The notes under the pieces: model-generated
The model's database searches: none
Seen by the model: only the letters and a program-made list of their open reading frames with translations
Told to the model about the DNA's origin: nothing
Origin: Maribacter sp.
Lineage (GTDB): Bacteria; Bacteroidota; Bacteroidia; Flavobacteriales; Flavobacteriaceae
Reading direction: 5' to 3'
Length of the DNA stretch: 46,242 bases
NCBI GenBank assembly: GCA_023141835.1
Contig: JAGLKG010000048.1
Location: forward strand, 1 to 46,242
Shown here: positions 38,475-43,153 of the stretch, piece by piece
How the letters are laid out: every line of letters starts with the position of its first letter
Numbering within the stretch: position 1 is the first letter of the stretch
Translations under genes and position numbers: made by a program

Positions 38475-39872
38475 TTAGATGGTTTCTGCAATTTCCAGAG
38501 CTTTGGTCAATGCTCCAAGCTTGTTATAGGTTTCTTGCAATTCGTTTTCAGGATTTGAAGCGGCCACCAGACCGGCACCGGCTTGGTAGTGCAATTGATG
38601 ATTTTTACTCAAAAATGTACGGATCATAATGGCATGATTGAAATTCCCGTTAAAATCCATAAAACCAATTGCGCCGCCATAATAATCCCGATTGGTTTTC
38701 TCGTACTTCTCAATGAGTTGCATGGCCATATGTTTGGGTGCCCCACTCAATGTACCAGCAGGAAAAGTATCTGCTACGACCTTCATAGTCGTTATGTCTT
38801 TTTTCTTTTGCCCAGTGACCTTAGAAACCAAATGAATAACATGGGAAAAGAATTGTACTTCCTTGTAATTCTCAACATTGACCATATTGCCATTCCGGCT
38901 TAAATCGTTCCTAGCCAAATCAACCAACATAACATGTTCACTATTTTCTTTATCGTCCTCGGTTAGTTTTTTAGCAAGTTCGGCGTCCTTTTCGTCATTG
39001 CCCGTTCTCCTAAAAGTGCCAGCAATCGGGTGGATTTCTGCCCTGCCATTATTGACAATCAATTGTGCTTCAGGTGAACTGCCAAATATTTTGAAATCCC
39101 CATAATCGAAGTAAAACAAATAGGGAGAAGGGTTTACAGAACGAAGAGCTCTATAAACATTGAATTCATCTCCTTTGAACCCTTGTGAAAACCTTCTCGA
39201 TAAGACCAATTGAAAAACGTCACCACGCTGACAGTGTTTTTTGGCCAAGGCAACATGCTCCTTATATTCTTCATCGGCAAGATTAGAACTCGGATTACCC
39301 TTTTTTGCAAAATTATATGTTGCAAAATTCTTTACATTAAGAATATGCTCTATCTCATCGATGTTACTTTCAGAATTATAGCAATGGGCGAAAATATAAG
39401 CCTCATTTTTAAAATGATTTATTGCGATAATATTTTGATAAACAGCATAATAAATGTCAGGAATGTCAAGTGCCCCCTCTTTTTTACTGATCTCTATGTC
39501 TTCAAAGTATCTTACGGAGTCATAACCCATATAGCCAAAAAGACCGTTGTTAATGAACTTGAATTCATTATCATCCGCTTTGAATCTTTGACTGAAATCA
39601 TGAATGATCTGTACAACATTGGTGTCCGAAGTAATTTGAATACTGGTGTTTGTATTATCTGGAAATTGTTCTAAAACGGTTTCACCTTCTACTTTGATTG
39701 ATGCTATAGGATTACAACATATATAGGAAAAACTATTGTCATTGGCATGGTAGTCACTACTCTCCAAAAGTATACTATTGGGGAATCTATCCCGTATTTT
39801 AAGATAAACGCTGACAGGTGTAATCGTGTCGGCGATAATTTTCTTGTGATGTGATTTAAATGGGTAAATCAT
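38475..39872 (-). CDS. trpE: Anthranilate synthase component I
   Basis: 465 residues. Makes anthranilate from chorismate, the committed step. The feedback-binding element LLESSD is near residue 36, so inhibition by Trp is likely. The chorismate-binding domain shows LVLSRRFSQG, SPEAQLIVNNGRAEIHPIAGTFRRTGNDEKDAELAKKL, EHVMLVDLARNDLSRNG, TFPAGTLSGAPKHMAMQLI and YQAGAGLVAASNPENELQET. First structural gene of the trp operon, 18 bp after the attenuator terminator. Confidence 0.97.
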   Translation of the reverse strand: MIYPFKSHHKKIIADTITPVSVYLKIRDRFPNSILLESSDYHANDNSFSYICCNPIASIKVEGETVLEQFPDNTNTSIQITSDTNVVQIIHDFSQRFKADDNEFKFINNGLFGYMGYDSVRYFEDIEISKKEGALDIPDIYYAVYQNIIAINHFKNEAYIFAHCYNSESNIDEIEHILNVKNFATYNFAKKGNPSSNLADEEYKEHVALAKKHCQRGDVFQLVLSRRFSQGFKGDEFNVYRALRSVNPSPYLFYFDYGDFKIFGSSPEAQLIVNNGRAEIHPIAGTFRRTGNDEKDAELAKKLTEDDKENSEHVMLVDLARNDLSRNGNMVNVENYKEVQFFSHVIHLVSKVTGQKKKDITTMKVVADTFPAGTLSGAPKHMAMQLIEKYEKTNRDYYGGAIGFMDFNGNFNHAIMIRTFLSKNHQLHYQAGAGLVAASNPENELQETYNKLGALTKALEIAETI

Positions 39873-39890
39873 GATTAATAGTTATTAATT

Positions 39891-39922
39891 AAAAAAGGCT
39901 TGTCGTGATAGACAAGCCTTTT
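39891..39922 (-). terminator. trp attenuator: leader terminator
   Basis: On the minus strand: AAAAGGCTTGTC (39922-39911), loop TATCAC, GACAAGCCTTTT (39904-39893), ending in six T's: a 12-bp stem in a classic intrinsic terminator, between the leader peptide and trpE. The alternative partner is GTCGTGAGCTAAGC (39957-39944), at the end of the leader peptide: GTCGTGA pairs with TCACGAC (loop plus start of the 3' arm) and AAGC with GCTT of the 5' arm, which would prevent the terminator. Confidence 0.92.
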
Positions 39923-39950
39923 ATATAGTTTTACTACAATGATGCTTAGC

Positions 39951-40007
39951 TCACGACGTTTTTCGTAAGTTACTCCACCACCATATATTTAATATTGCGT
40001 TTTTCAT
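39951..40007 (-). CDS. trpL: trp operon leader peptide
   Basis: 18 residues: MKNAILNIWWWSNLRKTS, ATG at 40005-40007 and TGA at 39951-39953. Three consecutive Trp codons (codons 9-11) followed, after the stop, by a terminator upstream of trpE. If charged tRNA-Trp is scarce the ribosome stalls at codons 9-11, leaving the GTCGTGA segment (leader bases 51-57) free to pair with the terminator and let transcription continue. If Trp is plentiful the ribosome reaches the stop and covers this segment, and the terminator forms. The arrangement is the same in logic as the enteric trp leader but with its own sequence. Confidence 0.93.
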   Translation of the reverse strand: MKNAILNIWWWSNLRKTS

Positions 40008-40012
40008 TGCAC

Positions 40013-40043
40013 CAAATATAGAAATGATTTTTCAAACAACAAA
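40013..40043 (-). promoter_or_regulatory. trp operon promoter
   Basis: On the minus strand: TTTG (40043-40040), 19-bp spacer, TATATTTG (40020-40013), a full match to the Bacteroidota consensus. Only five bases (GTGCA) separate the -7 element from the trpL ATG, so the transcript should begin at or next to the ATG. The remaining sequence to 40286 is AT-rich and shows no gene. Confidence 0.8.
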
Positions 40044-40286
40044 TACGTTTTTTGAAAAAAGAAGAAGAATGCCATAATCCTACGAATTTTAATTTTTGGA
40101 ATAAAATTATATAGGCAATACGCGTGCCATTATATTAGTGGTATTACTCTCGATATATTATCGTCCATCTAAATGTAGTTCTAATAACTGTATAAACTTA
40201 AATTTTATTGAGAGCGAAATATTTTTGGTATAAGTTCTTCTTTTTGATTTTTATAAATAATCATGAATTTTGATATATATTAATGA

Positions 40287-41828
40287 TTAAAACTGCAATT
40301 TAATTCTCTCTGACCTATACAAAATATCAGTTTGGCCCCAACCACTTGTTTTATTGCCATTTTCACTTTTAAGATTAAGAGTAGCTTCAAAAACTTCTTT
40401 GCTTGTATTATAATCAACCTCAACTATTTTAGCTGATAGATGAGTCCCATTTTTTATGAAACCAGATGTAATCAAAACATTATCTGATTTTTGTAAATAG
40501 TCAACATCGCTTACAATTGTGGAGAAAAATTCCAATCCTCTTTCTTTACCATATTGCCATATCTGTTTTACGGTCTTTTCTTTTTCATTTATATTATATT
40601 CGACGGCCCTTGAATAATGAACATTATTCTCAAAATTTCTGAAAACCCCATTATCAAACAATAAAAGATTACCATTAGGCATGAAATTTGGCGCATGTTG
40701 GCCCCATGGATAGTCAAATTGAGCAGAACTTTTTTTGCCAATCTGGATGTCAGTGGGAAATGTTTTTCCCACTGAGTCAACCGCTGTTAATAAATAAGGC
40801 TTGGTGTCAAATCCTTTTCCGTCCCTTCCTGCTTTCCCCCAACTTTTAATAGGGGACATTATCCATTGAAGCTTATCGTTCCATGAGATTTTCATTAATC
40901 CTAGATTTTTACCTGAAACTATGATGGAATGATCGTCCTTATCATACGCTAATCCATTCATGTGAAGAAAATCACCAGGTCGAAAAAAATTCAATTCGTT
41001 TAGGCTCACATCAAGGTGTTTGGCTAAATCCCATTCTTTTACAATTTTAGATTTCTTACGGTCAAATAACATGATGAAATCACTGTCTGAAACCACATTC
41101 TTGCCATCTAGATTTATAAACGCTCCTTTCTTACCAATACATATTAGTAAATTTCCATTGGGCAATTCCAGAACGTCATGGTGCATACCATAATTTGCAC
41201 TTATTTTAGTTTCTTTTAATGGTTTGCCCAACATGTCAAATTCGTAAATAACATGCCTGCTTACCATTAAAATTGTCCCATCTTTAAGCCTTTGGAATGG
41301 GCTTACCATCTTGCCGGCAAAACTTAAATCTAAATACCAACGCACTTTGCCTTGATCATCAAAGATCATAGGGCCAGAATTAAATTTGCCATTATTCGCG
41401 AAATGTATATCACAAGCATGCAAACCTGGCTCCATTTCATTTCGACTTAGCTTATTAATGGAAATTTCTGGGAAATGGGCAGGCGTATTTCCAGTTTTAA
41501 TTTTAACCGTGTCTACTATTTTGCCACCATCATATTTTAAAGTAACGACAACATTATTGATTGCATTAGGGTATAATCCTACCACCGGGATTTCTAAATT
41601 AGTAGAATTGGCTTTAAAAGATTGCTTGATAGGAGATTCGCCAAGTACTTCGATGGTAGCGCTACAAGATCTTTCTGCTTCAATTACCATCCTAGCTGTC
41701 AAAGGAGATATTTTATATGGATTTAATGTCGTCTCAATGGTATAATCTAATGTTGAACCACAGCTACTTGACATAAGTAAGACAAAAACCATTGAACATA
41801 TAACAGGGGATAGGATTTTAGAAAACAT
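40287..41828 (-). CDS. Arylsulfotransferase (AssT) family lipoprotein
   Basis: 513 residues. The N-terminus (MFSKILSPVICSMVFVLLMSSSCGST) is a signal sequence ending in a Cys suitable for lipidation (SSC), so probably a lipoprotein. An N-terminal beta domain (about 30-115) precedes a six-bladed propeller. Histidines that are catalytic in AssT have plausible counterparts in YGMHHDVLELPNGN, FLHMNGLAYD and WGQHAPNFMPNGNLLLFDNG. AssT transfers sulfate between phenols in the periplasm; this family member's donors and acceptors are unknown. There is no DsbA/DsbB-like partner nearby. Its upstream region contains a 32-bp dyad. Confidence 0.85.
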   Translation of the reverse strand: MFSKILSPVICSMVFVLLMSSSCGSTLDYTIETTLNPYKISPLTARMVIEAERSCSATIEVLGESPIKQSFKANSTNLEIPVVGLYPNAINNVVVTLKYDGGKIVDTVKIKTGNTPAHFPEISINKLSRNEMEPGLHACDIHFANNGKFNSGPMIFDDQGKVRWYLDLSFAGKMVSPFQRLKDGTILMVSRHVIYEFDMLGKPLKETKISANYGMHHDVLELPNGNLLICIGKKGAFINLDGKNVVSDSDFIMLFDRKKSKIVKEWDLAKHLDVSLNELNFFRPGDFLHMNGLAYDKDDHSIIVSGKNLGLMKISWNDKLQWIMSPIKSWGKAGRDGKGFDTKPYLLTAVDSVGKTFPTDIQIGKKSSAQFDYPWGQHAPNFMPNGNLLLFDNGVFRNFENNVHYSRAVEYNINEKEKTVKQIWQYGKERGLEFFSTIVSDVDYLQKSDNVLITSGFIKNGTHLSAKIVEVDYNTSKEVFEATLNLKSENGNKTSGWGQTDILYRSERIKLQF

Positions 41829-41854
41829 TTTTTGTTTAAAAATAGATAATTTTC

Positions 41855-41886
41855 ATCCAATAGGGCTAAATTTATTTTTATTGGAT
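41855..41886. promoter_or_regulatory. 32-bp dyad in front of the AssT-like gene (candidate operator)
   Basis: ATCCAATA (41855-41862) and TATTGGAT (41879-41886) are perfect inverted 8-mers and the palindrome TAAATTTA (41867-41874) lies exactly at their centre. Read on the minus strand TAAATTTA is one mismatch from the -7 consensus. Located 27 bp before the ATG. A dimeric or tetrameric regulator is likely; which one is unknown. Confidence 0.6.
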
Positions 41887-42035
41887 TTTCTCAAATAAAA
41901 GCGATATTGTTCATTTGGTTACACTTGATTGTGCTGTATCAGATATAGCATTCGCCTTATTTTATACTTCTTTGTAAATAATGGTAGTATACATTAGCCT
42001 CGAAGTGAAAAAGGAAATAGAACAATGTAAATCTA

Positions 42036-42074
42036 TTAAAAAACACCCTAAAGGCTTGAAGGCCCATAGGGTAT
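42036..42074 (-). terminator. Terminator of the marR-yceI unit
   Basis: On the minus strand ATACCCTATGGGCC, TTCAA, GCCTTTAGGGT then GTTTTTTA: a 10-bp-class stem with a mismatch, followed by six T's, 21 bp after the yceI stop. Confidence 0.8.
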
Positions 42075-42094
42075 TAATTCTGCGACTATGACCT

Positions 42095-42673
42095 TTAGAA
42101 TACCAAATCAACCACTAGGTCAAATTCGTCATAGATTGTCTTATCGCCCAAGTTTTCAAAAAAGTTGCCAGATCTAAATTTTATATCATAGTTGGTTCTG
42201 TCAACTTTTAAAGTGGCGGTAGCCTTGCTGCCGTAAATGGATAGATCAAAAGTAACAGCTTTGGTGATGCCTTTAATAGTTAAATCTCCAGTAACTTCGT
42301 AAGAGTTTTTTCCAGAAGTTTCGACCTTGGTGAAGACAAGCTTTGAAGTAGGGTGAGTTTCAACTCCAAAAAAATCATCAGACTTTAAATGTCCTTCAAG
42401 TTTGCCTTTCATGCCACCTTCCATATCAGAGTCAACCAAGGAAGTCATATCAACAATAAACTCTCCTCCCGTAAGTTTATCGTTATCAAAAACCAGTGCC
42501 CCTTCTTCGATGTTTATGGTGCCCGTATGAGAACCAGTTACTTTGTAAGCTTTCCAAGTTACTGAGCTTTTCTCGGCTTTTACTTCTTTTTTTTCTCCGT
42601 CTACAGGAGAGGTTGCACTGGCTGTAAAACCAAATACGATTGCAAATACAAAACTCAATAGATTCTTTTTCAT
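42095..42673 (-). CDS. YceI-family periplasmic protein
   Basis: 192 residues with a signal peptide (MKKNLLSFVFAIVFGFTASA). YceI proteins are lipocalin-like barrels that bind isoprenoid or other amphiphilic lipids. Family segments: SSVTWKAYKVTGSHTGTINIEEGALVFD, GGEFIVDMTSLVDSDM, LEGHLKSDDFFGVETHPTSKLVFT, VTGDLTIKGITKAVTFD. Co-directional with marR, 33 bp downstream of it, as is common in flavobacteria; MarR probably controls both. Confidence 0.93.
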   Translation of the reverse strand: MKKNLLSFVFAIVFGFTASATSPVDGEKKEVKAEKSSVTWKAYKVTGSHTGTINIEEGALVFDNDKLTGGEFIVDMTSLVDSDMEGGMKGKLEGHLKSDDFFGVETHPTSKLVFTKVETSGKNSYEVTGDLTIKGITKAVTFDLSIYGSKATATLKVDRTNYDIKFRSGNFFENLGDKTIYDEFDLVVDLVF

Positions 42674-42706
42674 GATTTAAATTATTAATTGTTACTATTT
42701 AAGTGT

Positions 42707-43153
42707 TTAAAATTTATGTAATAAAAAATTCAATTGTTGAAGTTCTTTTTGTGAAAATTGTTGTAAAAGTTCGTTTTCTATATTATCCATTACTTGGTCC
42801 ATTTTCCTTAATGCTGCATTTCCCTTATTGGTAATGTTAATTTCCACCTTTCTCCTATTGGAGGGGCAGGTCATCCGGTCAACGTAGCCTTTGTTCAGCA
42901 ACTTATCGACCAAACGAGTAGTATTACTCATTTTGGTCACCATTCTTTCATTTAGGGTTGAGAGATTTGCTGGCTTACCCTTTTGACCTCTTAAGATGCG
43001 TAAAACATTGAATTGTTGTGCCGAGACATCAAAGGGCTTCAATGCCTGTGCAATCCTTTCGTTAATTGTATTGTTGACCAACAATAAATGAATAATTGTC
43101 TTTTGTTCAAGGGGTAATTTATAGTCAGTTCTAATACGTTCTTCTACATCCAT
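42707..43153 (-). CDS. MarR-family transcriptional regulator
   Basis: 148 residues. Winged-helix DNA-binding protein with the MarR pattern: VSAQQFNVLRILRGQKGKPANLSTLNERMVTKMSNTTRLVDKLLNKGYVDRMTCPSNRRKVEINITNKG, i.e. recognition helix followed by the wing (SNRRKVEI). N- and C-terminal helices form the dimer. The ligand is unknown. Divergent from the rhodanese gene, with a palindromic operator over its own -7 element, so autoregulation is probable. Confidence 0.93.
   Translation of the reverse strand: MDVEERIRTDYKLPLEQKTIIHLLLVNNTINERIAQALKPFDVSAQQFNVLRILRGQKGKPANLSTLNERMVTKMSNTTRLVDKLLNKGYVDRMTCPSNRRKVEINITNKGNAALRKMDQVMDNIENELLQQFSQKELQQLNFLLHKF

Follow-up and report, generated by a model that had tools for sequence, protein, structure and literature searches.

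The DNA in front of the tryptophan (Trp) operon of a Maribacter species was analysed within a stretch of 46,242 nucleotides (nt) (contig JAGLKG010000048.1, assembly GCA_023141835.1; hereafter the window), and we conclude, with a probability of roughly 0.88, that the minus strand carries there a ribosome-mediated transcription attenuator of the trp operon, which is a member of the Rfam family RF01692 (Bacteroid-trp). The pairings and the geometry of the attenuator were obtained by comparison with relatives and by folding; the transcription start, the stalling of the ribosome and the response to Trp we infer. The family itself is already catalogued and was published in 2010, and what is added here is comparative support for the antiterminator core together with a predicted leaderless promoter layout shared across a clade.

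Direct reading of the minus strand confirmed every element named in the initial annotation, namely a promoter, an 18-codon frame, a 12-bp terminator with a T-run and an alternative pairing segment. The leader open reading frame (ORF) trpL (MKNAILNIWWWSNLRKTS; 40007-39951) runs from ATG at 40007-40005 to TGA at 39953-39951, and the three Trp codons claimed for positions 9-11 of the 18-residue peptide are there as TGG TGG TGG (39983-39975), in tandem and upstream of the terminator. The terminator hairpin with its T-run (39922-39891) has the form AAAAGGCTTGTC-TATCAC-GACAAGCCTTTT, with 12 bp at 39922-39893 and the T-run at 39896-39891, four of the six T lying within the stem. The putative antiterminator segment GTCGTGA (leader nt 51-57; 39957-39951), inside which the stop codon falls, is indeed complementary to TCACGAC (39908-39902) in the loop and 3′ arm of the hairpin, and the second proposed pairing, AAGC with GCTT, was found as TAAGC (39948-39944) with GCTTG (39917-39913) of the 5′ arm. 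The annotation had overlooked the Rfam family, the spacing that predicts a leaderless start, and a protector hairpin which can form without a ribosome when the leader is folded; the arms of the latter are CUUACGA (39969-39963), facing 39956-39950, and an outer arm (39944-39935), facing 39985-39976 over the Trp codons. Downstream on the same strand trpE starts at 39872, followed by trpG, D, C, F, B and A (operon 39872-33228; assigned from ORFs and NCBIfam matches).

To RF01692 the leader scored 73.3 bits against a gathering cut-off of 49 (model positions 1-131, E = 2.1e-7 over the whole window); no other Rfam family reached gathering level in the 46 kb, and the match stands before trp genes in a member of the Bacteroidota. 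Matches to Atu_C9, GibS, BTnc231, OrzO-P and cyano_het_sRNA fell under their own gathering scores and were rejected. Within the genus RF01692 was found in every one of the 12 genomes, that of the window among them; it was also found in 178 of 249 genomes of the family and in 42 of the 395 searched in the phylum, with stricter filters at the family and phylum levels than at the genus level. Weinberg et al. 2010 list the Bacteroid-trp motif in their Table 1 (PMC2864571). A 2019 paper on Flavobacterium psychrophilum places it before the trp operon and ties it to amino-acid starvation (PMC6414381), and strong clues for leader-peptide attenuation upstream of amino-acid operons have been described in the same species (PMC9723704).

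Two sets of relatives were compared. The TrpE-picked set holds the best 80 of the 578 loci returned for TrpE (81-98% identity, a close clade), so that its selection was independent of the RNA; the nearest relatives by TrpE were mostly Flavobacteriaceae. The RF01692-picked set holds 165 further loci, including duplicates and genomes shared with the TrpE-picked set. A leader ORF with a Trp run was found in 80 of the 80 TrpE-picked loci, as WWW in 79 and WW in one, and a leader was called in 158 of the 165 RF01692-picked loci (none in 7). Of the 236 leaders with a -7 promoter element, 225 have exactly eight residues ahead of the Trp run, and the residues beyond the Trp run differ among genera. 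The leader lies more than 450 nt from trpE in five of the 80 TrpE-picked loci. As side observations, a small ORF with a GIY-YIG domain lies between terminator and trpE in five of these 80 loci (L061, L090, L092, L103, L110; in L090 at 2677-2961, the one checked against Pfam PF01541), and in L077 (Zobellia uliginosa) the leader ORF is four codons shorter (MNRNNVNTWWWNNS) and ends 5′ of the antiterminator segment, as is also seen in L131 and L242.

Pairing was followed in an alignment (A1) of 67 leaders of less than 85% identity, taken out of 238 leaders; a terminator was called in 235 of the 238 and none in three. The ten counted terminator pairs form in every cell of A1, with double changes at five of them. 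The outer antiterminator helix was paired in 91.0% of cells; pair 44-126 was G-C in 64 leaders and A-U in three, and pair 43-127 was U-A in 61, U-G in three, C-G in one and unpaired in two. A perfect GUCGCAA/UUGCGAC duplex is retained in L214, while L221 and L226, both belonging to other families of the class, have respectively eight pairs with GUCGUAAG and a similar, interrupted duplex. When A1 was shuffled, the observed number of cells changed on both sides and the observed covariation score were each reached in 0 of 500 shuffles, the number of pairs with a both-sides change in 8 of 500, and that of further pair types in 348 of 500. Loss of the Trp codons or of the pairing in close relatives, which the initial annotation had named as decisive against it, was not what the relatives displayed: the Trp-run leader was there throughout the TrpE-picked set and the antiterminator core was kept through double changes. 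Three changes at A39-U131 were set aside as antiterminator covariation, the pairing being shifted in register in L186 and L207 (GUGAGA/UCUCAC) and L219 having CGUGAGA/UCUCACG. By these counts of paired cells and paired changes, the terminator has strong comparative evidence and the antiterminator core good evidence, whereas that for the inner antiterminator helix and the protector is moderate.

The folding energy of the leader RNA was -33.1 kcal/mol, whereas its shuffles averaged -18.3 (z = -4.46, reached by 0 of 200 shuffles), and the antiterminator fragment alone gave z = -4.70 (0 of 200). A mechanical terminator scan of 1 kb listed two terminator-like sites, where shuffled sequence gave 0.2 on average, with the caveat that the 12-pair hairpin passed only when read on the plus strand, since four of the six T are taken as stem when it is read on the minus strand. 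In order to place a ribosome on the leader, nucleotides from -12 nt to +15 nt around the first base of the P-site codon were barred from pairing, a footprint size that we assumed. At the point where 5 nt of the 3′ arm of the terminator are out, 12.4 antiterminator pairs were expected in the window when the second or third Trp codon awaited its tRNA, and 0.15 when the ribosome stood at the stop codon. We counted a leader as switching if it gave at least five antiterminator pairs when stalled and fewer than two at the stop, a criterion of our own. By this measure 63 of the 67 A1 leaders switched (all except L161, L185, L207 and L210), against 6-17 of 67 (mean 11.4) in ten shuffles of the linker and 6 in one earlier shuffle; with 7 nt out, 57 of 67 switched against 3 of 67 in one shuffle. 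The geometry is regular as well, the antiterminator core starting 19-20 nt past the Trp run in 212 of the 232 leaders that showed the motif, and the stop codon beginning 2 nt into the core in 164 of those 232. In the absence of a ribosome and with 7 nt out, the terminator was dominant in 66 of 67 leaders. Terminator and antiterminator are thus mutually exclusive by both folding and paired changes, and, under the assumed footprint size, the stall position frees the antiterminator segment and the stop position covers it. The initial annotation's account of a flavobacterial leader with ribosome-mediated attenuation is supported by this comparison and folding, its response to Trp being the inferred part.

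Several results weigh against this reading. The inner antiterminator helix was paired in 72.2% of A1 cells and one of its pairs fails in 44 of 67 leaders; the protector helices were paired in only 67.1% (outer) and 67.8% of cells. At the stricter filter no RF01692 match was obtained in 71 of the 249 family genomes. When no ribosome was placed and 5 nt of the 3′ arm had been transcribed, the window still gave 7.65 antiterminator pairs, and at least five such pairs formed in 20 of 67 leaders. A ribosome at the first Trp codon with 7 nt out gave 5.3 antiterminator pairs and a terminator value of 0.57 in the window. Once the whole terminator was transcribed, equilibrium favoured the terminator in all states of the window; therefore, the decision must be kinetic.

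We propose the following sequence of events for the attenuator. RNA polymerase would start from a sigma-ABfr promoter at, or within 1 nt of, the leader AUG, so that the leader ORF would be read from a leaderless 5′ end. When charged tRNA-Trp is scarce, the ribosome would halt on Trp codons 9-11 and leave leader nt 51-57 free, and this segment may then base-pair with the terminator loop and 3′ arm as they emerge (GUCGUGA/UCACGAC, aided by UAAGC/GCUUG), upon which transcription would continue into trpEGDCFBA. When Trp is plentiful, the ribosome would reach the TGA inside the antiterminator segment and cover it, and the terminator would form. If no ribosome is present, the protector hairpin would hold the antiterminator segment and termination would follow.

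The promoter assigned to the leader consists of TTTG (40043-40040), read from the sequence as a -33 element of the Bacteroidota sigma-ABfr type by the literature consensus, and TATATTTG (40020-40013), a -7 element that is also seen in relatives. In Flavobacterium johnsoniae 4 or 5 nt separate the -7 element TAHHTTTG from the transcription start, and the -33 element is a weak motif (PMC6847099). With the last base of TATATTTG at 40013 and the A of the leader ATG at 40007, this spacing predicts a start at 40008 or 40007, i.e. 0-1 nt 5′ of the AUG. A sigma-70 scan of 39500-40500 gave five sites against 6.3 by chance, with the sole minus-strand site inside trpE; a sigma-70 promoter for the leader was rejected, the Bacteroidota type being the relevant one. 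In the 80 TrpE-picked loci the -7 element was TATATTTG in 72 and TATCTTTG in eight, and the distance from its G to the A of the first in-frame ATG was 5 nt in one locus, 6 in 49, 7 in two, 8 in 22, 9 in three, 29 in two and 31 in one; at distance 6, an A directly precedes the ATG in 42 of the 49 loci. By the F. johnsoniae spacing, the 77 loci at 5-9 nt would begin their mRNA 0-4 nt before the AUG, leaderless or nearly so. Among 511 other ORFs of at least 150 amino acids from the window and the same loci, with start codons assigned mechanically, the element stood 4-53 nt upstream in 13 and at 5-9 nt in two.

It is unlikely, though the best placed of the alternatives, that the attenuator is real and its transcript starts further upstream or with another spacing, behind a normal 5′ untranslated region (UTR). 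Leaders longer than 10 nt were reported for 87% of F. johnsoniae mRNAs (PMC6847099), and only 5.5% of F. psychrophilum mRNAs were reported as leaderless (PMC9723704). Three of the 80 TrpE-picked loci hold the element 29-31 nt off, which tells against the scheme as we draw it. Against the longer 5′ UTR stand those 77 loci and the 3.1-kb locus L001, in which no other TANNTTTG occurs upstream on the leader strand than the single copy 6 nt from the ATG. The trp leader ORF of the window is thus probably leaderless or nearly so, as judged from the -7 spacing. Searches of open-licence PMC papers turned up no Bacteroidota trp leader described as leaderless; in Bacteroides thetaiotaomicron about 3.7% of 5′ UTRs are given as shorter than 10 nt.

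The short spacing is also distributed in a clade-wise manner. In the 158 RF01692-picked leaders the element lay at 5-9 nt in 45, at 10-24 nt in 107 (peak 17-22), at 29-41 nt in four, and was absent in two, and many other Flavobacteriaceae have the 17-22 nt spacing. A TrpE tree of 76 rows (62 RF01692-picked loci and 14 of the 80 TrpE-picked ones; a quick search with one long branch flagged) needed three changes of the spacing label against about 25 with shuffled labels, and 30 of the 34 short-spacing rows fell in one clade (approximate likelihood ratio support, SH-aLRT, 95), the exceptions being L021, L024, L033 and L035. In L033 the 5-nt spacing is doubtful, since a second -7 element stands at 19 nt. 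Such clustering is what inheritance predicts. On the Maribacter-Zobellia-Arenibacter-Muricauda side the attenuator leader is likely to have turned leaderless, with its promoter 0-4 nt from the AUG by predicted start, and the 8-codon distance from AUG to Trp run unchanged.

Two further leader peptides were seen in the genus. A His leader of the type MRNQNTHHHFYTCSQAR, with hairpin and T-run, stands before hisG in ten of the 11 hisG loci of the genus (L246-L254 and L256; e.g. L247 from 1316), where a structured element is on record for F. psychrophilum (PMC9723704); no HisG match was obtained in the window's own genome, which is itself incomplete. A Phe leader of the type MTKQYFYNGFYFFFFFRKETGLL, with hairpin and T-run, precedes the prephenate dehydratase gene in 11 of the 12 loci returned (L262 from 1324, which is contig C306 of the window's own genome G000, and L258-L261 and L263-L268). 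In a scripted search the his and phe leaders of the genus had no exact TANNTTTG within 5-9 nt of their ATG, and by eye a degenerate -7 element lies about 9 nt (his) and about 20 nt (phe) ahead of it, so that a leaderless start was not borne out as a general trait of attenuators in the genus.

It is very improbable that the terminated leader RNA or the peptide acts in trans in addition, like rnTrpL and peTrpL of Sinorhizobium meliloti, whose leaderless trp attenuator RNA does so (PMC7298713); nothing in the data indicates a target, and apart from the Trp run the peptide changes from genus to genus. Least probable of all is a constitutive terminator, for instance one that serves the arylsulfotransferase-family gene upstream or transcription from the opposite side, with an incidental Trp-rich ORF, for although the hairpin is almost symmetrical, passes the scan in one orientation and follows a same-strand gene that ends at 40287, the relatives keep both the Trp-run ORF and its distance from the start, and covariation links the antiterminator core to the terminator. 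The upstream neighbours on the minus strand (40287-43153) are this arylsulfotransferase-family gene (PF05935), a YceI-like gene and a MarR-family regulator.

The paired changes make of Bacteroid-trp, so far a named motif, an explicit and testable switch. If the leaderless attenuator holds, the first ribosome would load at the 5′ end as it emerges from RNA polymerase, in a phylum without Shine-Dalgarno sites in its mRNAs. The two promoter layouts within one family, 5-9 nt and mostly 17-22 nt before the AUG, would then form a natural experiment that asks whether leaderless initiation helps to couple the first ribosome to RNA polymerase without such sites.

Among known systems, the trp attenuator of Escherichia coli shares the logic of protector, antiterminator and terminator, but it is leadered, uses a Shine-Dalgarno start and has two Trp codons. 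RF01692 is the same element, scoring over its cut-off, in the same phylum and with its leader ahead of trp genes; the Rfam model differs in that it stops within the terminator 5′ arm and draws only the protector-type pairing. The trp leader peptide of Campylobacter jejuni was found with a ribosome-binding site (PMC3847290). The trpL/rnTrpL of S. meliloti likewise combines a Trp-codon leader peptide with attenuation, in a transcript that begins with the trpL ATG, whereas its peptide has 14 residues and belongs to another phylum (PMC7298713). The trpL1 of Streptomyces lividans has 18 residues with WWW at 9-11, is reported to be leaderless and stands before trpE, but it belongs to another phylum, its peptide (MFAHSTRNWWWTAHPAAH) is otherwise different and its trpE is monocistronic (PMC8079986). 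If our reading is true, Streptomyces would have come independently to the leaderless layout of 18 codons with WWW at 9-11.
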